From positions 558,001 to 622,000 of the forward strand of contig NZ_CP087998.1 of assembly GCF_021044585.1 (NCBI RefSeq): DNA of 64,000 nt. Direction: 5' to 3'. Position 1 is the first letter of the stretch; every line of letters begins with the position of its first letter. This stretch comes from Sulfurimonas sp. HSL-3221 (GTDB taxonomy: Bacteria > Campylobacterota > Campylobacteria > Campylobacterales > Sulfurimonadaceae). The notes beneath the pieces were generated by a model. It saw only the letters and a list, made by a program, of their open reading frames with translations, was not told the DNA's origin and made no database searches. The position numbers and the translations under genes are program-made. This document shows positions 4,133 to 25,845 of the stretch, piece by piece.

Positions 4133-5029
4133 TCAATGATAACCCCACAAGTATTCTGACTTGTTCTGAAATGCATTGTATATGAGGATGTAACCATCTT
4201 CATTATAACTGTTGTGCCAAAATAAGAGTTCGGATTGACCGTCACCATCATAGTCACCGGCATCCACTAATGTCATCTCTCTGCCTATGTACTCGACGTT
4301 CTCTCCTTCTAGCAAGAACCAGTTATTCGACCACTCTGGCGGTAAGAGTCCATCACAACCAAACTTTTTGTCATTCAATCCTGCAGATACAATCTTTTGA
4401 CCAATCGAAGAGGTATAGGCGCTATAGATTACGATGTCGTCAGACGTAAAGCTGTAAGGTTCGGGCTCATTAACATAAGGGCCGTCTGGGCAGCGATACG
4501 CATTTAGTTTTCCAATGACCAATTTCAGTGGAACGTATAAGCGCTTTTTCATTGTATCATCCACTGCGAATGGCTTCCAATGCTCAGGATCATTGAAATT
4601 GGGCTCTGAAACAAGTACTAATGGCCGGTTGTTCGGTACTTTCACCCAACCACCAAACTTTTTTGAAACATTTTTGATTTGCGGTGTCTTCTGTCCGGCA
4701 CTAACGCTAAAGAATTTATCGCGGGCATAGAACCATGAGTTAATAAATTTCTTTTTGGGATCGGGATCTTCGATCTTTAATTCACCTAACTTTTGACCAT
4801 TAAATGCGACTATCCATTTCATCAACTGTAAGTTGGGCACTGAAGTATTGTATTCACGATAATATCTATCTGCAAAGGAAAGCCACTTCCCTTCTTTTTT
4901 CACGAATAATACTTTGGAGGAAGTTCCTGTTTGGTTCTGAGGTTCATCTAAAATCCCAATGTAAATTGGCTTGGCATAGACGTGTGTTGTAAGTGTCACT
5001 AATAGAAGGGCTCGTGCTACGAATCTCAT
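4133..5029 (-). CDS. Secreted hypothetical protein with calcium-loop-like motif (cassette 2)
   Basis: A 298-residue protein with a clear signal peptide (residues 1-19, ending in VYA). Near the C-terminus is DAGDYDGDGQSELLFW, an acidic DxDGDG loop typical of FG-GAP or EF-hand-like calcium sites. No enzyme signature is visible. The start follows a GTAAGAC core by about 18 bases, with AGGAAA as ribosome site. It is the largest gene of the cassette-like array and is AT-rich. A structural or secreted binding role is possible but not shown. Confidence 0.7.
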   Translation of the reverse strand: MRFVARALLLVTLTTHVYAKPIYIGILDEPQNQTGTSSKVLFVKKEGKWLSFADRYYREYNTSVPNLQLMKWIVAFNGQKLGELKIEDPDPKKKFINSWFYARDKFFSVSAGQKTPQIKNVSKKFGGWVKVPNNRPLVLVSEPNFNDPEHWKPFAVDDTMKKRLYVPLKLVIGKLNAYRCPDGPYVNEPEPYSFTSDDIVIYSAYTSSIGQKIVSAGLNDKKFGCDGLLPPEWSNNWFLLEGENVEYIGREMTLVDAGDYDGDGQSELLFWHNSYNEDGYILIYNAFQNKSEYLWGYH

Positions 5030-5044
5030 GAAAGTTTCCTGATC

Positions 5045-5117
5045 GTCTTACGTTTAAAATGAGCAATCAAAAAGCCCCCTCGGGTTTTTGATTAGTCCCA
5101 TCTGATTTGTTTGGCCA
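5045..5117 (-). repeat. attC-like element D
   Basis: On the minus strand it runs from GCCAAACAAATCAG through a long hairpin (AATCAAAAACCC with GGGCTTTTTGATT, one bulge) to TGCTCATTTTAAAC and ends in a GTAAGAC core. It overlaps the last codons of the upstream cassette gene, which ends inside the palindrome. It is the most complete of the four copies. Confidence 0.6.
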
Positions 5118-5498
5118 CAATGATGTTGCAGTTAAACCGCCAAAATACCAAGCTATGCCCAAGGGTGATAAAAAAACAAATATCGTATCCATCATAGTGT
5201 CATCGACTTGTGGGTCGTGGAATATGAGCGCCAGTAAAAATGTAACTGAAACGGTAACAACCAAAGGTGACACAAATTGACCAAGATGCTTTCGTGATGA
5301 AAGCATAGTTGGGTACATAATTCCACAAGTAATCAAAATATATAGAATCAGTAATGGAATTCCTAACATTGTCATTGCTAAACGTGAAGCATCGTCATCT
5401 AAACAAGGATTAATTGTGCAAGTCAAATTATCAATCCCGAAGAATATGACCAGTGTAAGTAATAAAGAAAATGTGATAGCAAATAGTTTTGATTTCAT
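5067..5498 (-). CDS. Four-helix hypothetical membrane protein (cassette 1)
   Basis: A 143-residue protein with about four hydrophobic segments (near residues 5-22, 42-65, 77-95 and 103-125) and no recognised family. The C-terminal dozen residues are encoded within attC-like element D. The ATG follows a GTTAGGGC core (5512-5519 on the plus strand as GCCCTAAC) by about 14 bases, with AGGACA as ribosome site. This would be the first cassette of the array in transcription order. Confidence 0.65.
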   Translation of the reverse strand: MKSKLFAITFSLLLTLVIFFGIDNLTCTINPCLDDDASRLAMTMLGIPLLILYILITCGIMYPTMLSSRKHLGQFVSPLVVTVSVTFLLALIFHDPQVDDTMMDTIFVFLSPLGIAWYFGGLTATSLWPNKSDGTNQKPEGAF

Positions 5499-5656
5499 AG
5501 TTTGTCCTGTTGCCCTAACAAGTTGTTTATTATCACAACGTACCTATCTGTGAGATTCTTGATAGACATCAATAATAAAAACAAAATAGCACGCTTTTAT
5601 ATATTTTACTGTGAAAGAGTTAAAATGATTGTTGCTTCTATATGCTTTTGATTTCC

Positions 5657-5685
5657 CTGACTGGAAATGATCTCCCGTGTATAAT
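5657..5685 (+). promoter_or_regulatory. Promoter for magIII
   Basis: CTGACT at 5657-5662 and TATAAT at 5680-5685 are separated by 17 bp, and the gene starts 29 bp downstream. Sequence match only. Confidence 0.6.
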
Positions 5686-5714
5686 GCGTTAATTGCCAAA
5701 ACAGGGAGAAACGA

Positions 5715-6368
5715 ATGGTGGAACTGCCCGATGCCAATGCCCTTTACAGCGCCCTGGAGGCGCTGAACCTGCTCGAAGGGAAACCGCCGATGTGGTGGCC
5801 GGAGTACGGCACTTTTTCCGTCGTCGTGGGGGCGGTGCTGACGCAGAACAGCCAGTGGACGCGGGTGGAGCAGTCGCTGGCCAATCTGGAAGCGGCGGGG
5901 GTACTCAATGCCGAAGCGATTGCGAATACAGACCTTGACACGCTGATGGAGCTGATCCGCCCCAGCGGGCTTTTCAAGAACAAGGCGAAGGTGCTGCAGG
6001 CCCTCTCGGCGGCGCTGCTGGAATCGTACGGCGGCTTTGAGACCTTCCGCGATGAGGTCAGCCGGGAGTGGCTGCTGGATCGGAAGGGAATAGGCCCCGA
6101 GACGGCGGACTCCATCCTCTGCTACGCCTGCGGGCGCGACGCGATGGTCGTGGACGCCTACACATCCAGGCTGCTTCGGGCCTTCGGGTTTGAGCACGAG
6201 AGCTACGACGCGCTGCAGGCGTGGTGCGTTGAAGGGATTGCGGGGCGTTTCGAGTCGCAGGAGCTGCCCATGATCTATGCTCTTTTTCACGGGATGATCG
6301 TCGAGTACGTCAAACGGTACAAAAAGGGGAGAGAGGTGGACGTGGGGGCGCTAGCGCCCCTGCTGTGA
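5715..6368 (+). CDS. magIII: 3-methyladenine DNA glycosylase MagIII
   Basis: This 217-residue protein removes alkylated bases such as 3-methyladenine to start base-excision repair. It has the helix-hairpin-helix/GPD fold: LTQNSQW near 42-48, the hairpin KGIGPETAD at 124-132 and the catalytic aspartate D147 in VVDAYT. Only one Cys remains after residue 150, so the C-terminal iron-sulfur loop of endonuclease III is absent, as in the Helicobacter MagIII type. The 3' end overlaps the convergent small membrane-protein gene by 18 bp. Confidence 0.88.
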   Translation: MVELPDANALYSALEALNLLEGKPPMWWPEYGTFSVVVGAVLTQNSQWTRVEQSLANLEAAGVLNAEAIANTDLDTLMELIRPSGLFKNKAKVLQALSAALLESYGGFETFRDEVSREWLLDRKGIGPETADSILCYACGRDAMVVDAYTSRLLRAFGFEHESYDALQAWCVEGIAGRFESQELPMIYALFHGMIVEYVKRYKKGREVDVGALAPLL

Positions 6369-6641
6369 ACCGCCTAGTGATTTTTCGATCTGCTGCTGGT
6401 GGAGCTGATGCGGGGTAAGCCGCGCGGAGGGGGAGAAGAGCAGGGCGTAGGCGAGCATCAGCAGCGGAACGCCGATGCCGATGACCCCCGCCAGCCACAT
6501 CTGCCCTTTGTGGGGCGGTTTCGGCGGTCCCTTCTCCCCGGCGCGGATGAGCAGGTACATCACGGCGATCGCGATCAGCGTGGCGAAGAAGACGGTGACG
6601 AAGACGACCATAGCGGCCCTGGTAACGGGATCATCCAACAT
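6351..6641 (-). CDS. Two-helix hypothetical membrane protein
   Basis: A 96-residue protein with hydrophobic segments at about 10-32 and 48-68, separated by a Pro/Lys-rich loop (GEKGPPKPPHKG). The C-terminal tail is polar and Gln-rich. No family is recognised. It converges on magIII with an 18-bp overlap and is divergent from the next membrane-protein gene. Confidence 0.6.
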   Translation of the reverse strand: MLDDPVTRAAMVVFVTVFFATLIAIAVMYLLIRAGEKGPPKPPHKGQMWLAGVIGIGVPLLMLAYALLFSPSARLTPHQLHQQQIEKSLGGSQQGR

Positions 6642-6743
6642 TCTATAACTTTAGCCCAATCGCAAAGCGTTTGTCAAAGGGAATGAAGCGAACCGGGGCC
6701 GGAAATGCGCTATGATAGTGCAAAATCTGCCAAGGTCGGATGC

Positions 6744-7316
6744 ATGGCGAACCACAAAAGCTACCTCGGACGCTACGAGCGTGATGCGCAGGGGCGGTAT
6801 ATCATCGATGTGGCGGCACAGCGTCCGGAGGCGCTCTATGACGACTTCGATAGGTACGCCGACTACCTGCGCCGGGACCTGGACCAGGATCTGACGGATT
6901 ACCTCACCTCGTGCGCCAGGGAATTGCCGCGACAGACGCCGTTGGTCATAAGGTTTACCTTCCCCGAGGAGCAGGCAGAGGAGAAGTATGCCCGCATCCG
7001 CCGGAGCATCGGCACGTTTTTTCAGTACATGGCCGAGCTGGAGCGGGAGACGACGGCGGAGATGCTGCGCAAGGCGGGGCTGCTTTTTGCCGTCGGCGTG
7101 GCCATCATGTTCCTGGCCGTCTGGGTACGGCAGTGGATAGGCGAGAGCCCCTCCGTCGTCGGGGAGGTCTTCGCCGAAGGGCTGACCGTGGCAGCCTGGG
7201 TGTCGCTCTGGGAAGGGGTGGCCCTCGTGCTGCTGGAGTGGCGTCCGCACCGTACACGGGTGCGGCGCTACGAGCGGCTGGAGGCGGCAGAGGTCCAGTT
7301 CCGCAGCAAGGCATAA
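6744..7316 (+). CDS. Hypothetical protein with two C-terminal transmembrane helices
   Basis: I take the ATG at 6744 (190 residues) rather than the in-frame ATG at 6705, because the conserved-looking sequence begins with MANHKSYLGRYER and an AAGG-type site precedes it. The first 110 residues are soluble and charged. Two hydrophobic segments follow, around 112-130 and 140-165, then a basic tail. No known family is recognised. It lies upstream of the AGCS symporter with a 36-bp gap, so the two may be cotranscribed. Confidence 0.65.
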   Translation: MANHKSYLGRYERDAQGRYIIDVAAQRPEALYDDFDRYADYLRRDLDQDLTDYLTSCARELPRQTPLVIRFTFPEEQAEEKYARIRRSIGTFFQYMAELERETTAEMLRKAGLLFAVGVAIMFLAVWVRQWIGESPSVVGEVFAEGLTVAAWVSLWEGVALVLLEWRPHRTRVRRYERLEAAEVQFRSKA

Positions 7317-7352
7317 ATGTGAGACGATTTCAAGGTGTAATCAGGAGGTTTG

Positions 7353-8687
7353 ATGGAGATGTTTGAACAGGCGGTCGCGGCGGCGGCGGGCTTTATATGG
7401 GGGGCGCCGGTCCTGATACTGCTGGTCGGTACGGGGCTGTTTCTGACCATTAGGCTGCGTGGGCTCCAGTTCCGCGCGCTGGGACACGCTTTCAAGCTTA
7501 TCTGGCACCGCAATGATGAATGCGAAGGGGACATCTCCCACTTCGCCGCGCTGATGACGGCCCTGGCCGCGACGGTGGGCATCGGGAATATCGTCGGGGT
7601 CGCGACAGCCATCGCGCTGGGCGGTCCCGGCGCGGTCTTCTGGATGTGGACGATAGGGCTCATCGGGATGGCCACGAAGTACTCTGAAGCGGTCCTGGCG
7701 GTCAAGTACCGCGTCAAGGGGAGCAACGGCATGAAGGGCGGGCCGATGTACTACATCTCCGAGGGCGCCGGGCTGCCGTGGCTGGGGGCGGCCTTTGCCG
7801 TCTTTACGGCGGTGGCGGCCTTCGGCATCGGGAACATGGTGCAGTCCAACGCTGTGGCGTCGGCGCTGCAGGGCCAGTTCGCTTTGCCCACCTGGGTGAC
7901 CGGGATCGTCCTGACAATTCTTTCGGGGGTCGTCATCCTCGGCGGCATCAAGTCTATCGCCCGCTTTACGAGTGTGCTGGTCCCCTTTATGATCGCCGGC
8001 TATGTGCTGGGGGCGCTCGCCATCATCGTGCTGAACCTTGACAAGGTGCCGGGGGCGTTTGGGCTCATCTTTACCCATGCCGTCACGCCGATTGCCGCGG
8101 GGGGCGGCTTCGTCGGGGCGACGGTCGCGGCGGCCATAAGGTACGGGGTCGCGCGGGGCGTCTTTTCCAACGAATCGGGCCTCGGTTCCGCGCCCATCGC
8201 CGCGGCGGCGGCCAAGACGGATTCGCCGACCCGTCAGGCGCTGGTCAGCATGACGCAGACCTTCATCGACACCCTGGTCGTCTGTACGATGACGGCACTG
8301 GTCATCCTGATGGCGCCGCAGTGGCAAGAAGGGGTGGCGGCAGGGGAGCTGACGATGGCAAGCTTCACCCACTTCCTGGGCGTTGCCGGGACGGTGATTG
8401 TGACGGCCGCGACGGTGCTCTTCGCCTACTCGACGCTGATCGGCTGGGGCTACTACGGCGAAAAGGCGATTGAGTACCTCTTCGGCGAAGGGCACATCCG
8501 CTATTACCGCGTCGTTTTCGTGCTGATGATCTTCGTCGGGGCGGTGCTGAAGCTGGAGCTGGTCTGGAACATCTCCGACCTCTTCAACGGGCTGATGATC
8601 ATCCCGAACCTGATCGGCCTCCTGCTGCTGCATAAGGTGATTGTGGGCGAGACCGAGCGCTATTTCGGCGGCAACGCGAAGCAATAA
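7353..8687 (+). CDS. Sodium:alanine symporter family protein (AGCS)
   Basis: This 444-residue integral membrane protein has about ten hydrophobic segments. It carries AGCS signatures such as AATVGIGNIVGVA near 73-85 and a repeated glycine-rich FSNESGLGSAP segment in the middle. The family imports alanine or glycine together with sodium or protons across the inner membrane. AGGAGG at 7343-7348 precedes ATG 7353 by 4 nt and ATG 7359 by 10, so the start may be two codons later; a TTG at 7350 is too close to the ribosome site. The substrate is inferred from the family. Confidence 0.9.
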   Translation: MEMFEQAVAAAAGFIWGAPVLILLVGTGLFLTIRLRGLQFRALGHAFKLIWHRNDECEGDISHFAALMTALAATVGIGNIVGVATAIALGGPGAVFWMWTIGLIGMATKYSEAVLAVKYRVKGSNGMKGGPMYYISEGAGLPWLGAAFAVFTAVAAFGIGNMVQSNAVASALQGQFALPTWVTGIVLTILSGVVILGGIKSIARFTSVLVPFMIAGYVLGALAIIVLNLDKVPGAFGLIFTHAVTPIAAGGGFVGATVAAAIRYGVARGVFSNESGLGSAPIAAAAAKTDSPTRQALVSMTQTFIDTLVVCTMTALVILMAPQWQEGVAAGELTMASFTHFLGVAGTVIVTAATVLFAYSTLIGWGYYGEKAIEYLFGEGHIRYYRVVFVLMIFVGAVLKLELVWNISDLFNGLMIIPNLIGLLLLHKVIVGETERYFGGNAKQ

Positions 8688-8702
8688 CGTTTAGCGCTCT
8701 TT

Positions 8703-9932
8703 TTAGAAGCGGATGCAGAAGCGGTGCGTCCCCTCGCGGTAGTCGTAGACGAGGGTGAAGCCGTGCGCCTGCACGACGGTATCGGTGATGGAGAGGCCGA
8801 GCCCGAGCCCGCCAGCCGGATTGGCGCTGGAGAAGGGCTGCATGATCGTGTCCAAAGGGACATCCAGCGGTGCACCCGTGTTGGCGATGCAGATCCCCTG
8901 GCGGTCGGCGGTGACGGTGACCGGGGGCGCGCTGCTGTATTTTAGGGCGTTGTCGAGGAGGTTGGACAGGGCACTGATGAAGAGGGGGGCGTCGGCATTG
9001 ATGCTGACGTCTGGTTCGATGGTGATCATCAGCGCCTGGCGCCGCTCGGCGGAAAGGTAGAGCTGATGCACTGCGGTTTCCAGCAGCGCACCGAGCTTTT
9101 GGGGTGTGCGGTCGAGCCCGATGCTCTGGAGCTTTTCGACCTGTGCGACGCCGTTGATGAGGTCGTCCATCCGGCTGAAAAGACGGTTGAGGTAAGCGGT
9201 CTGCTCGTTTTCTTCCATCATCGCCAGGGAGAGTTTGCCCTTGGTCAGCGGGGTTTTCAGCTCATGCATGACGTTGCGCAGAAAGAGCTGGCGTGACGCG
9301 CGCAGTTGCCGGAGCTGCTCCACGGCGTCGTTGAACTCGTTGGCGATCGCCGCGATCTCGTCGCGGCGCGTGCTGGAGGTGTCGATCTCGAGTTCGCCCT
9401 GGCCGAAACGGCGGATCTGGGCATGGAGTTCGCGCAGCGGCAGCAGGCTGCGGCGCAGCAGGATATAGAGGGTGACGAGCCCCGCCAGCAGCAGCACGAA
9501 GATCAGCTGCAGGCCGCCGAAGTTTTCGGCGCTCCGTTCGTCTCTGATGACGAAAGGGTCGCGGCGGAGCGTGGAACGGAAGTAGTAGCTCCCGTCCGCC
9601 TCGTAGAGCCTCAGATGCGGTTTTTCCCGGTGTTCATCGTCCTCATGCTCCTTGTCGCGGCGGGGCGGTAGGAGTTCCCGGGCGCCTGCGGGGAGGGCAT
9701 CGTGCTCGAGGAGCGTGAACTGCGCCTCCAGGAGTGCGGCGGCGCGTTCGGCTTCTCCTGCACTGCGGGTGTGGCGCAGCAGGCGCCCCAGCTCCATCCC
9801 CCGCAAAACCTCCCGGCGATCCTCCATATGCGATGCGGTGACATGGAACAGGGCAAAGAGCAGGGCCAGGGTGGAGAGGGCGAGGAGGAAGAAGAGGTTG
9901 AGCTTGAAAAAGATGGAGCTATGGCGGGGCAT
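8703..9932 (-). CDS. ArsS-like sensor histidine kinase
   Basis: A 409-residue membrane kinase. Transmembrane helices lie near 11-30 and 140-160 and bracket a periplasmic sensor of about 110 residues rich in His, Asp and Glu (DKEHEDDEHREKPH), a plausible proton or metal sensor. HAMP follows, then a dimerisation domain with phospho-accepting H223 in MHELKTPLTKGK, and an ATPase domain with NLLDNALKYS and GLGLGLS. The H-box with TKGK is typical of the Campylobacterota ArsS group, which senses acid in Helicobacter. ATG 9932 has GGAG at good spacing; the GTG at 9938 does not. It overlaps nothing but sits against the regulator's stop. Confidence 0.85.
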   Translation of the reverse strand: MPRHSSIFFKLNLFFLLALSTLALLFALFHVTASHMEDRREVLRGMELGRLLRHTRSAGEAERAAALLEAQFTLLEHDALPAGARELLPPRRDKEHEDDEHREKPHLRLYEADGSYYFRSTLRRDPFVIRDERSAENFGGLQLIFVLLLAGLVTLYILLRRSLLPLRELHAQIRRFGQGELEIDTSSTRRDEIAAIANEFNDAVEQLRQLRASRQLFLRNVMHELKTPLTKGKLSLAMMEENEQTAYLNRLFSRMDDLINGVAQVEKLQSIGLDRTPQKLGALLETAVHQLYLSAERRQALMITIEPDVSINADAPLFISALSNLLDNALKYSSAPPVTVTADRQGICIANTGAPLDVPLDTIMQPFSSANPAGGLGLGLSITDTVVQAHGFTLVYDYREGTHRFCIRF

Positions 9933-21623: not shown

Positions 21624-22166
21624 GTGAAACGCACCGGACGCTTTTTTTCTCTTGCCCTGGTGTATGCGCTGCTGAGTTCAGCGCCGGGCAGCGCCACTGA
21701 CACCATCGAACGGTCGGGAGATGCGCTTAGCATCATGCTTCCGCTTTGCGCGGCGGCGGCAACCGCCTACCATCATGACGGCGAGGGGGCGCTGCAGTTC
21801 ACGGAAGCGTTCGCGACGACCATGGGGGTCACCTACGCGCTCAAGTACAGCATTGATAAAAGGCGTCCCGATGGCAGCGATCAAGACGCCTTTCCCTCCG
21901 GCCATACGGCTGCCGCGTTTTCCGGGGCCTCATTTCTGCAACAACGTTATGGCACGCCTTATGGACTTCCGGCTTATCTGGCAGCCGTTTATGTCGGTTG
22001 GAGCCGTGTGGAGGTAAAGGCCCACGCCGTTGAGGATGTGCTTGCCGGAGCCGCAATCGGGATCATCGGCACGTACCTGTTTACCAAGAGGTTCAAGCGG
22101 GAGATGTCTCTTGTCCCCGTGGTTGGCAATAAACAATTCGGTCTAGTGTTTCAAAAAAAGTTTTGA
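21624..22166 (+). CDS. PAP2-family phosphatase
   Basis: A 180-residue exported or membrane-bound acid phosphatase-like protein, GTG start, with a signal-like N-terminus. The three PAP2 motifs are present: KYSIDKRRP near 73-81, FPSGHTAAAF near 90-99, and GWSRVEVKAHAVEDVLAG with catalytic His and Asp. Such enzymes dephosphorylate lipid phosphates, including undecaprenyl pyrophosphate or lipid A. It is the last gene of the plus-strand run and stops 22 bp before the tRNA-derived repeat of the island. Confidence 0.85.
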   Translation: MKRTGRFFSLALVYALLSSAPGSATDTIERSGDALSIMLPLCAAAATAYHHDGEGALQFTEAFATTMGVTYALKYSIDKRRPDGSDQDAFPSGHTAAAFSGASFLQQRYGTPYGLPAYLAAVYVGWSRVEVKAHAVEDVLAGAAIGIIGTYLFTKRFKREMSLVPVVGNKQFGLVFQKKF

Positions 22167-22187: not shown

Positions 22188-22219
22188 AGTGGCACGCCCG
22201 GAGGAATTCAGATCCCCGA
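22188..22219 (-). repeat. Degenerate copy of the tRNA-Arg(CCG) 3' end (distal att site)
   Basis: The 17-bp block AGTGGCACGCCCGGAGG (22188-22204) is identical to 24894-24910, which holds the CCA end, acceptor strand and start of the T-arm of tRNA-Arg(CCG). Over 32 bases about 28 match. Beyond that the likeness fades (CTCGGTAGCGG against CTGGTACCGG), so it is a decayed tRNA fragment, not a working gene. Confidence 0.75.
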
Positions 22220-22257
22220 TACCTCGGTAGCGGACTTCTACACAAAATCTTGGGATA

Positions 22258-23916
22258 CTATGGTTTTGCATTGCCATTGATTTTAGATTTTTTCTCATCC
22301 ATATATTTCCGATACATGATCCAATTAACCCACAGTGATTCTGACAGGACGTGGATGCTGTCATCACCGTGATCAATGACGAAATCCTTTAGGTTGTCTT
22401 CATATCTCACTTGTCTCGGTACCACATTGTAATCCAGCCACAGATATTCTTCATGTTCGTTATCGTCAATTTGCCAGGAATTAAAGTTCTTATCTATGCA
22501 TGCTTCCACATGCAGTTTGTAATCATGATGATCACTCAGGGCAATACATTCGCTTTTTAAACTTTGGCTGGCTTCTTCTATAGACTTGTACTTTTTCGTC
22601 TCCCTTTTCATCCGACGTTTGAACGCAAAAATCTTGTTCATGCATTTGACATGCAAATCGAATTTTTTAGAATACGCTTCGTCCAACTCGATTGCAAAAA
22701 ACACTTCAGGCTTTCCTAGTCGTATCAGTTCCCGGGACATGCCCAAAAACAATGCATTTGCGGCAATCTCTTCATAATCGATATAGTTTTTGACATCGGG
22801 CAGCATAAGCTCCTCTTGCATTTCATTCATGAGCCAATTCAGTGGACTGATTTTGATATCATCTTCTCTGCGACAGGTGGCGGCATTCGCCGCTCCCGAT
22901 ACGCTTGGGGAATATTTTCCTCTGAAAACAGATACATTTTGGCTTCGTTTACCCACAAGAAGCTTGGAACTTTCACCATTACGGCAAATCACCAGACAAC
23001 TCAACCCTAAATGATTTTCAACCATTGTTTCTTCGAGCTGATTGAGTCTTTTTCCCGGCATGCCCGGTTCCAAAACATCACGTACCGTTGTGTTGTGGAT
23101 GATGCCGACATCAGCCATCATATTCGTAACAAGATAATTAAAATAAAAAGAGTTCTCCATTTTTATCGTAATGTTATCGGCACTCTTTTCAATCCCCTTT
23201 ACGCGTAACGTCACTCCGTTATAATTGGATTTATTTGTCGCCTGATGGTAAAACTTTTCCTCTAGCTTCACTTTGGCCGATGCTGCAATAATCCATGGTA
23301 AAGCGTAGTGGTTGTTATCGTTGTGGAATAGAAGATTATCAATGGTAAAAGAGGGGTATTGAGGTTTGATCAAATAAATTGATCTGGTTAAAACCTGATT
23401 CTTACTGTCCATAATGTCAGTGATTGCCTCCGCCGTATAGCGGCTGCCGTCATTTTCATTCGATAAAATCCGAATCAGATCAGGGTAATGTGCCTCATAT
23501 TTTTCAATGAGTTCTTTGTGACTGGTTGTAAATAATTGGTCTTCATCTTTATTGGTCTTGCAAAATAAGTACCACAGTGTAGGGAAAAATAATACAAACA
23601 ATACGTACAGATTGTTTTCGAAAACACTGGAAACCCTATGAGCGAAATTAGCCATTATACGGGTTATTTGGAGTATTGGACTTTCTGTGTCATTCACCTT
23701 CATGTCATCGTCAATAAGAGCTTGTTGCAATGATTTTTGAGCCATCATTGAAACATTCGTATCTGTGTTGACTTGTGTTGTATTTCCTGACTGAAACAGA
23801 ACAATGAATCCAGCAATGATCAGAATAAAATAGATCCACAATATTGATCTCTTTTTCTTTTGACTGTATTGAGATATCGTCGCAAAAAATGTATCTTTGT
23901 CAAGACAAGACATCAT
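22258..23916 (-). CDS. Membrane-anchored protein with NUDIX-like C-terminal domain
   Basis: A 552-residue protein; ATG 23914-23916 lies 34 bp after the PP2C stop, and a longer upstream reading frame would overlap the phosphatase gene. Two transmembrane helices lie at about 23-42 and 102-118, followed by a cytoplasmic region of some 180 residues without known motifs. From about 305 there is a NUDIX-like fold: a strand SCLVICRNG, KLLVGKRS, and a box ending MNEMQEELML near 363-372. The REUxEE core is altered (N for R), so catalysis is uncertain and the domain may bind a nucleotide-like ligand instead. AT-rich and paired with PP2C, inside a tRNA-bounded island. Confidence 0.6.
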   Translation of the reverse strand: MMSCLDKDTFFATISQYSQKKKRSILWIYFILIIAGFIVLFQSGNTTQVNTDTNVSMMAQKSLQQALIDDDMKVNDTESPILQITRIMANFAHRVSSVFENNLYVLFVLFFPTLWYLFCKTNKDEDQLFTTSHKELIEKYEAHYPDLIRILSNENDGSRYTAEAITDIMDSKNQVLTRSIYLIKPQYPSFTIDNLLFHNDNNHYALPWIIAASAKVKLEEKFYHQATNKSNYNGVTLRVKGIEKSADNITIKMENSFYFNYLVTNMMADVGIIHNTTVRDVLEPGMPGKRLNQLEETMVENHLGLSCLVICRNGESSKLLVGKRSQNVSVFRGKYSPSVSGAANAATCRREDDIKISPLNWLMNEMQEELMLPDVKNYIDYEEIAANALFLGMSRELIRLGKPEVFFAIELDEAYSKKFDLHVKCMNKIFAFKRRMKRETKKYKSIEEASQSLKSECIALSDHHDYKLHVEACIDKNFNSWQIDDNEHEEYLWLDYNVVPRQVRYEDNLKDFVIDHGDDSIHVLSESLWVNWIMYRKYMDEKKSKINGNAKP

Positions 23917-23950
23917 TTTTAAATTCACCCTTGTTTTCAAATACACCCTT

Positions 23951-24781
23951 TTAGTAGTTAAGACGGATAGCACTCGCATCATCTGATTTTTTGAATCTTG
24001 GAAACTTTTGCAGCATGGAGTCGTCTTCTTCAATTTTTCTGATTGCTTCAACGATATCAACAAGGCTATGCCCGAACAAATCTCCGATTGAAAAATAGCC
24101 ATACGTATCCACAACAGCACTAAACCCGTCAGTACTCAAGAGGATTCTATCATTTTGCTGAGGATTTAATACGGTCTTGTCGATGAAGTTTGAACATTTT
24201 TTTATCCCTTCACTGTCAATCGTCAAGGCACCGTACCCATCTTCGGTATTTATCAATGATCGATGCTTCTTCAACAAACTTTTTATTTCATCATCAGAGA
24301 TTGGGGCAATCTTCATTTTTGTTAGGATGAGGTTGTCGAGTGCACAAATTTTCGGTTCATTGAAAATGGAGTATTCGTCACCCTTTGTGGAATAGTATGC
24401 TTTGCAGTCACCTAATCTGCTTACTTCGACTTGCCCGTTGTCCAAATTTCTAATTAAAACCATGCTGGCAGAAGGCAGTTCATACTTCGGTAATGTGAAT
24501 GTCCCTACTATCCCCATGTAAAGTTTTTGGATTTCGGACAATACATTTTCAATTAATATCTTTGTAGTAAGTCCGCGGGCATACTTTTCTTTGAATAATT
24601 TTATAAACATCTGGACAAACCATTTAGCATCGCTTTCAGCATGAGGAATATGATTCATCCCCAATCCTGTCGCGCCGTCTAACAGCAAATAGTAGGCATC
24701 ATTAGTATCAAAGCCATCTTCGTTGGGTTTGTCACTTGAACCTGAACGGGATATATATTCAATTGATTTATTTAGTGTCAT
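23951..24781 (-). CDS. PP2C-family protein phosphatase
   Basis: A 276-residue soluble metal-dependent Ser/Thr phosphatase. The order of motifs is complete: KPNEDGF (19-24), LLLDGATGLG (32-41, metal-binding Asp35), SRLGDCKAYY, LLSTDGFSAVVD, and KSDDASAIRL at the C-terminus. It is smaller than SpoIIE-type proteins and has no sensor or membrane segment. It is the first gene of the island and sits 114 bp downstream of tRNA-Arg(CCG), with the membrane NUDIX-like gene directly behind it. The target phosphoprotein is unknown; no kinase is encoded beside it. Confidence 0.8.
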   Translation of the reverse strand: MTLNKSIEYISRSGSSDKPNEDGFDTNDAYYLLLDGATGLGMNHIPHAESDAKWFVQMFIKLFKEKYARGLTTKILIENVLSEIQKLYMGIVGTFTLPKYELPSASMVLIRNLDNGQVEVSRLGDCKAYYSTKGDEYSIFNEPKICALDNLILTKMKIAPISDDEIKSLLKKHRSLINTEDGYGALTIDSEGIKKCSNFIDKTVLNPQQNDRILLSTDGFSAVVDTYGYFSIGDLFGHSLVDIVEAIRKIEEDDSMLQKFPRFKKSDDASAIRLNY

Positions 24782-24895
24782 TTTTTTTTATTCAAAATAC
24801 ATTTTATGCCAGCAGCATAGAAGAGTCCAGTGAAGTTTTACTGATAGTGATGAGCTTACTCAATCCCTCTGTATAATCAGCTGAAGAGAAAGTAG

Positions 24896-24972
24896 TGGCA
24901 CGCCCGGAGGGATTCGAACCCCCGACTCCTGGTACCGGAAACCAGTGCTCTATCCAGCTGAGCTACGGACGC
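24896..24972 (-). tRNA. tRNA-Arg (CCG anticodon)
   Basis: A 77-nt cloverleaf on the minus strand: acceptor GCGTCCG with CGGGCGT, TA at 8-9, D-arm GCTCAG..., anticodon stem CTGGT/ACCAG with loop TTCCGGT, T-loop TTCGAAT, discriminator G and an encoded CCA. It reads codon CGG. Its 3' end is the attachment site for the adjoining island. Confidence 0.93.
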
Positions 24973-25051: not shown

Positions 25052-25690
25052 CTAATCCGCCTTTGAAAAGTGGATGATTTTCCCCTCTTTGGTAATGGTG
25101 ATCCCTGTCCCTTTCTGTTTTTGCCATGCGTTGTGCAGGGCAACGAGGAGGGCAAGATCGGGGCGTTTTTGCGTGATGACCGGCTTGAAAAATTCGGCCT
25201 CCTCGAAGATCTCGGCATGTGTATCCTGCTCAAAGCCCATCGATACCAGCCCCCTTGGGTGAGAAAGCCCGAGTGCCACGGCGATGGAGTGGAGGCTCGC
25301 TTCGTCCTTGCGCTCTATCGCTTCGTCGTAGATACAGTAGGCTTCCAGGGGGTTTTGAAGGTAGCACTGGTAGATGGATGCGAGATCCGCAATATAGAAG
25401 AGATCGTCGGTGAGCTGTTTGTAGGCTTCACCCCGGTCAGCCTCCGGGCCGAAATTCAGTGATGCGATATCACTCCCGGCCTGGTGGAGCAGGGCGCTGC
25501 CGATCACGACGAGCCATTCGGCCATGGAAAGCGTATCGATCTCCGCATCGCGGCCGATAATGATAACAGGCCCGACCCGTTCATTCCGAAACGCGATGCC
25601 CTTTCCCGTGACGTCGATAATAGGCGGGAGCGGATCGACCCCGAAGGCTTTGAGGTGGTCTTCCATAAAGGTTTTGGTTTTTTCGAACAT
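25052..25690 (-). CDS. Conserved-looking hypothetical protein
   Basis: A 212-residue soluble protein starting at MFEKTKTFMED, with GGAG about 12 bases ahead. It has no signal peptide, transmembrane helix or catalytic motif that I recognise. The N-terminal half has small strands with glycine turns (VGPVIIIGRDAE), the middle is helical with several Ala/Tyr-rich helices (YIADLASIYQCYLQNPLEAYCIYDEAIE), and the C-terminus ends in a short beta hairpin. Codon use and GC content match the backbone, so it is not part of the neighbouring island. Confidence 0.6.
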   Translation of the reverse strand: MFEKTKTFMEDHLKAFGVDPLPPIIDVTGKGIAFRNERVGPVIIIGRDAEIDTLSMAEWLVVIGSALLHQAGSDIASLNFGPEADRGEAYKQLTDDLFYIADLASIYQCYLQNPLEAYCIYDEAIERKDEASLHSIAVALGLSHPRGLVSMGFEQDTHAEIFEEAEFFKPVITQKRPDLALLVALHNAWQKQKGTGITITKEGKIIHFSKAD

Positions 25691-25845
25691 CGGGAGAGCT
25701 CCGCGCAATTTTTGCGCTATTGTACCTTCATCATCGCCAAAAAGTGATGAACCGGTAAGGATGGCCAGTAAGGTATCAAGGTCAAAGATGAAAATCGAAG
25801 TGGGCCGCCTTCCCCTTACAGAAAAGAGCGGCCGGGTGTGAAAGG

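Follow-up and report, generated by a model that had tools for sequence, protein, structure and literature searches.

At the 3' end of a tRNA-Arg(CCG) gene in a campylobacterotal genome, a 2.7-kb insert carries two genes, one for a membrane protein whose soluble part is predicted to adopt the fold of human NUDT22, and one for a phosphatase of the PP2C type. Our characterization suggests that this pair is a mobile conflict module, probably directed against phage, in which the Nudix head would gate a membrane effector and the phosphatase would set its state; we put the probability of this reading at about one half. Both domains, as well as the type of a membrane-anchored Nudix effector, are already known, and the new part is the pairing of Nudix and PP2C. 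By the window we mean the whole 64-kb stretch of DNA that was analysed.

A two-gene insert at tRNA-Arg(CCG)

The locus has the following features, in window coordinates:

21624..22166, plus strand: PAP2-family gene, the core neighbour left of the insert (PF01569, 4.7e-13)
22188..22235, no strand: att-like repeat, decayed copy of the 3' part of the tRNA, 21 bp past the PAP2 stop
22258..23916, minus strand: 2TM-NUDT22-like Nudix protein, 552 aa, likely start ATG at 23916
22291..23391, minus strand: predicted NUDT22-like fold, residues 176-542 of the Nudix protein (VIA-align Z 19.4 to NUDT22)
23554..23847, minus strand: two hydrophobic segments of the Nudix protein, residues 24-42 and 103-121 (hydropathy; helices in the model)
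23951..24781, minus strand: PP2C-type phosphatase, 276 aa, motifs NEDG, LDGAT, GDC, TDGF and DD conserved
24894..24940, no strand: att-like repeat, intact copy, comprising the 3' part of the tRNA plus 2 bp
24896..24972, minus strand: tRNA-Arg(CCG), intact, the integration target (ARAGORN, Rfam; near-identical tRNA in relatives)
25052..25708, minus strand: core neighbour right of the tRNA, retained in relatives

The direct repeat 22188-22235 versus 24894-24940 contains 17 bp of exact match and is identical at 39 of 46 aligned positions, with one gap. Against a background of about 2,700 overlapping segments, obtained by sliding the tRNA along the 64-kb window, it scores 30, whereas no segment outside the tRNA genes exceeds 17 on either strand, so that the repeat is not due to chance. 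The G+C content of the gene pair is 0.386 versus 0.551 for the window. Together, base composition, repeat alignment and tRNA calls confirm what the initial annotation had described, namely two AT-rich genes between tRNA-Arg(CCG) and a degenerate repeat of its 3' end.

That annotation had also proposed to look for an empty site in close relatives, and one is present in a genome of the same genus (G004), where 21 bp separate the PAP2 stop from tRNA-Arg(CCG). The window has the same 21-bp distance between this stop and the decayed repeat, and the tRNA follows 2.7 kb beyond; thus, the two genomes form a pair of empty and filled site. As is defining for an island, the insert lies between a tRNA and a copy of that tRNA's 3' end, with the empty site found in a relative. 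Both genes run in the same direction, separated by 34 bp. The 2.7-kb insert contains no other gene, and neither of the two encodes an integrase; the insert is a decayed or cassette-type tRNA-integrated island devoid of an integrase. Promoter and terminator scans at the locus yielded hits at chance level only, and no defence gene was identified beside the pair within the 64-kb window.

In the complete genomes G007 and G005, the same interval between PAP2 and tRNA holds other, unrelated genes, which marks it as a hot spot. G005, of the same genus, also has, elsewhere, a copy of the tRNA-Arg(CCG) 3' end (49 bp, 92%; G005:C1:1015309-1015357), adjoining a DUF262-looking gene and probably belonging to another element at the same kind of site.

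The spread of the membrane gene is patchy. A family profile search retrieved it from only one of 397 genomes of the host phylum, and from one to three of about 400 genomes in three other phyla. This rules out a core-gene reading of the pair, which the initial annotation had named as an outcome that would undo the island or conflict reading. In nearly all hosts, the G+C content of the module is below that of the rest of its own locus. Recurrence of the module at varied tRNA sites is not supported, as just one other locus adjoins a tRNA: in L018 (Oscillospiraceae), a lone 2TM-Nudix gene (7443-8720) also stands next to a tRNA-Arg(CCG) gene (6990-7065), with a partial copy of about 18 bases of the tRNA 3' end between the two, at about 7325-7343.

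A membrane protein with a predicted NUDT22-like head

An AlphaFold2 model of the Nudix protein, built with 11 relatives, has a mean pLDDT of 56, which is moderate, with most of the core at 60-84. Its top match in Foldseek is human NUDT22 (E 6e-8). Using VIA-align, residues 176-542 of the model superimpose on residues 1-290 of NUDT22 with a Z score of 19.4 and an rmsd of 3.3 over 256 residues, at 13% identity; the next family, represented by the E. coli Nudix protein 2fkb, follows with a Z score of 11.8, and the TRPM2 chanzyme reaches 9.2. By this model, the soluble part of the protein has a NUDT22-like Nudix fold from end to end. The Nudix-like domain that had been proposed from sequence is therefore borne out by Foldseek and VIA-align on the structural model, while the middle region described as unexplained turns out to be the N-terminal part of the same predicted fold. 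The two transmembrane helices are likewise clear in most relatives, yet the second is weak by hydropathy in the window copy (1.62). The reading frame remains open further upstream, to a GTG at 24120.

The Nudix helix reads NEMQEEL (residues 364-370), and a GKP motif follows at residues 401-403. The canonical box GX5EX7REUxEExGU is not matched in the window protein, and its arginine is not kept across the family. Of the altered REUxEE core noted in the initial annotation, the loss of the arginine (NEMQEE) stands, but all three glutamates are present. NUDT22 itself has no conventional Nudix box (PMC5688067), so a missing box does not bar membership in a NUDT22-like family. The first and the last helix glutamate are kept in nearly all family members, and YxxxxxTNxxxD, NHxG and RxxxxxGKP are invariant marks. 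Two distant relatives carry RELREE (L040) and REFREE (L041), which independently supports the Nudix assignment. In the tree, the window protein sits on a long branch apart from the main family, its exact place being unsure.

At the sequence level, Pfam, NCBIfam and PADLOC returned nothing above chance for the protein and its family; searches of the window protein with PADLOC models gave no match at E 1, and PDB sequence profiles gave no Nudix match. No relatives were found in viral contigs and phage records, and the viral structure library contributed only general Nudix proteins. Elsewhere in the wider family, locus L021 (5270-8678) encodes two NUDT22-like proteins near each other, both devoid of transmembrane segments, and an N-terminal stretch of one of them may be a DNA-binding domain.

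The best fold match being NUDT22, which hydrolyses UDP-glucose (PMC10101856), the protein might be a metabolic enzyme. It would then be a hydrolase of the NUDT22 type, tethered to the membrane, that acts on UDP-glucose or on a nucleotide sugar similar to it, and is encoded by an accessory gene and tuned by PP2C. The complete set of helix glutamates is consistent with this, and given the precedent of NUDT22 the odd box does not imply inactivity. Nevertheless, we consider a metabolic role unlikely: the helix is damaged in two family members (ERLPRAM in L023, AEYHKEL in L022), the head occurs fused to TIR domains and behind ThsB genes, and the genes are horizontally acquired and very sparsely distributed.

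The phosphatase partner

The second protein matches the Pfam family PP2C_2 (PF13672) with E 5e-5 and 23.4 bits, just under the gathering cut-off of 24, a score that is a threshold rather than a structural feature. Its model (pLDDT 58) matches PstP and tPphA in Foldseek (E 1e-9), and each of the seven pair members compared has the set of metal-binding aspartates (ED, DG, DG, DD). The partner thus has the predicted fold and the metal-ligand motifs of a PP2C, as had been anticipated in calling it a soluble PP2C phosphatase. Caspase matches of its profile in the PDB were judged to be due to chance, the fold being plainly PP2C. It shares the fold and the metal-ligand motifs with the PP2C_2 phosphatases (PF13672; PstP, tPphA, PppA), but represents a subfamily of its own, just below the Pfam cut-off, and has no linked kinase.

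The absence of a kinase from the insert does not preclude phospho-control, since at least one unlinked Ser/Thr kinase is found in each of the seven genomes tested, including the host of the window. In the latter, the one Ser/Thr kinase and a PP2C domain share a single open frame of 611 aa (L062, G000:C1:742573-744081), close to a putative nitrite reductase gene.

Recurrence of the pairing

Scanning an alignment of the Nudix core over 84,980 species genomes gave 13 loci, to which plasmid searches added three. Among these 16 loci, collected without reference to PP2C, seven have a PP2C beside or fused to the membrane Nudix gene. In six of them (L004, L012, L013, L015, L017, L019) the Nudix gene comes first and the PP2C gene is adjacent, mostly with overlapping stop and start; in L016, both are fused in one reading frame, whose PP2C part is then broken by a frameshift or sequencing error. 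The hosts of these pairs are Bacillota and Pseudomonadota, in addition to the Campylobacterota of the window. As a host genome contains just 0-5 PF13672 matches, pairing at this frequency is not due to chance; the initial annotation had proposed to test for recurrence in other genomes, and the pairing does recur.

What did not hold is the notion of this exact pair as a single, vertically inherited module. In the tree, the window PP2C groups with PP2Cs that stand alone, among them those of Alphaproteobacteria, and the PP2Cs of the other pairs form a separate clade (both groups 100/100); moreover, the gene order in the window is reversed relative to the other pairs. The different PP2C subfamily and the reversed order indicate that the pairing is probably either very old or of repeated origin, and repeated pairing would strengthen the functional link. 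A search of full-text literature, with most subscription journals outside its scope, found no description of a Nudix-PP2C pairing.

The same observations could be taken to mean that the window genes are independent cargo of the tRNA hot spot, adjacent by chance, and that only the pairs of the other families are functional, the more so as the hot spot holds unrelated genes in G007 and G005. We regard this as quite unlikely in view of the frequent pairing among Nudix loci that were gathered blind to PP2C in genomes with few PP2C genes, and of the tight, co-directional arrangement of the window genes as sole content of their insert.

The compact layout, with two small co-directional genes that overlap or are fused in relatives and stand alone on a mobile insert, would also suit a toxin-antitoxin or addiction pair serving to stabilise the element, with the membrane protein as toxin and PP2C as its neutraliser. 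This, too, is quite unlikely: in nine of the 16 loci the Nudix protein has no PP2C in its vicinity, which would be intolerable for a toxin unless it were decayed or otherwise controlled, and a NUDT22-like head suggests a ligand-gated protein.

Links to immunity

Some of the evidence for the conflict module comes from relatives of the Nudix protein. In the close relative L022 (Treponema bryantii), the Nudix gene stands after two ThsB-type TIR genes (PADLOC 2.8e-49; PF08937 1.4e-22), with no ThsA in sight. The genes in this row (4622-8807) are the two ThsB genes, an unrecognised gene of 372 aa and the 2TM-Nudix gene, a possible new type of Thoeris. A reading of the gene between ThsB and Nudix as a class III nucleotide cyclase found no support in Pfam or PDB. 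In two distant relatives, the membrane part is swapped for or joined by a TIR domain: L039 (4677-6389) combines TIR (TIR_2, 3e-27) and a C-terminal NUDT22-like Nudix domain in one protein, and L038 (6235-7824) combines TIR (TIR_2, 1.3e-17), a transmembrane segment and the same C-terminal domain. L039 sits among other TIR and TPR genes.

On a megaplasmid of Lachnospira eligens (L010, 6542-11867), the Nudix gene is split into three ORFs. After it come a gene of unknown kind and a DUF4325 STAS-like gene, with an Abi_2 gene farther along; a reading of the gene beside the Nudix gene as a GHKL-ATPase found no support. The proposed proximity to known defence genes is thus thin, consisting of the two ThsB genes in L022 and Abi_2 in L010. 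The two-gene insert of the window contains no ThsB TIR gene, such a gene being seen only in L022. Control genomes gave matches to a CD-NTase (SMODS), but neither the host genome nor any of 13 genomes containing relatives did, and membership in CBASS is therefore not supported.

Discussion

How does the pair relate to known systems? The closest described kind to the Nudix protein appears to be Cap16, a transmembrane CBASS effector with a NUDIX domain, which is proposed to damage membranes and whose toxicity survives mutation of that domain (PMC10419184). By description rather than by sequence, the two are alike as transmembrane proteins with a Nudix domain; however, Cap16 works with a CD-NTase, whereas the partner here is a PP2C. 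The nearest analogue in design is the TM-macro ThsA of type II Thoeris, which is driven by His-ADPR and damages the membrane upon oligomerisation (PMC12847820). It shares the combination of a membrane part and a nucleotide-binding head, and the L022 relative occupies the place of ThsA behind two ThsB genes, but the head is a macro domain there and a Nudix domain here, and the window pair has no ThsB. Human NUDT22 resembles the whole soluble part in fold, though with low identity, and has neither the membrane anchor nor the PP2C partner. In TRPM2, the NUDT9-homology Nudix domain is the ligand-controlled gate of the channel. The likeness would lie in a Nudix head acting as a ligand-controlled gate of a membrane protein, while TRPM2 differs in the Nudix family and in being a 6TM channel rather than a 2TM protein.

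A role in defence is inferred. In the mechanism we propose, a mobile two-gene module that entered the genome at the tRNA-Arg(CCG) 3' end would encode a membrane protein with a large cytosolic NUDT22-like head. This head would bind a nucleotide-type ligand that is produced or set free in the course of infection, and might also cleave it. The head would control the membrane part as the effector, which upon release might damage or depolarise the membrane of the infected cell. PP2C could set the state of the effector by removing a phosphate that a host Ser/Thr kinase had added to it; alternatively, it could remove a phosphate from the ligand of the head.

In favour of the conflict module we count the insert, its empty site and the other content of the same spot in related genomes, the folds, the recurrence with translational coupling or fusion in relatives, the links to TIR and ThsB, the low G+C, the patchy spread and the precedent of Cap16 and ThsA. 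Counted against it are the lack of recognition by PADLOC, the clade split of the PP2Cs, the reversed order, the loci with no PP2C, the lack of an adjacent defence gene, the weak second transmembrane segment and the moderate model confidence. The original proposal of a signalling or defence module with a phosphatase-controlled membrane effector is therefore supported in part, by mobility, folds and recurrence, its weaker side being the linkage to defence genes. More tentatively, the family could represent an unnamed class of immune effectors, with a NUDT22-like ligand head on a 2TM or TIR part, a dedicated PP2C as on/off switch, and a Thoeris-like version in which Nudix replaces ThsA.

In the literature, the only TM-Nudix effector we found is Cap16 of CBASS. 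A recurring, CD-NTase-free TM-Nudix protein with a PP2C, whose head is also found on TIR domains, points to phosphorylation as a second route of control. It likewise points to a NUDT22-like sensor family for which PADLOC, Pfam and NCBIfam have no model, and it gives a bacterial context to NUDT22, which stands apart within its human family and whose substrates have only recently been found. On the more tentative reading above, the family would form a branch of bacterial nucleotide-signal immunity that is gated by a phosphatase.
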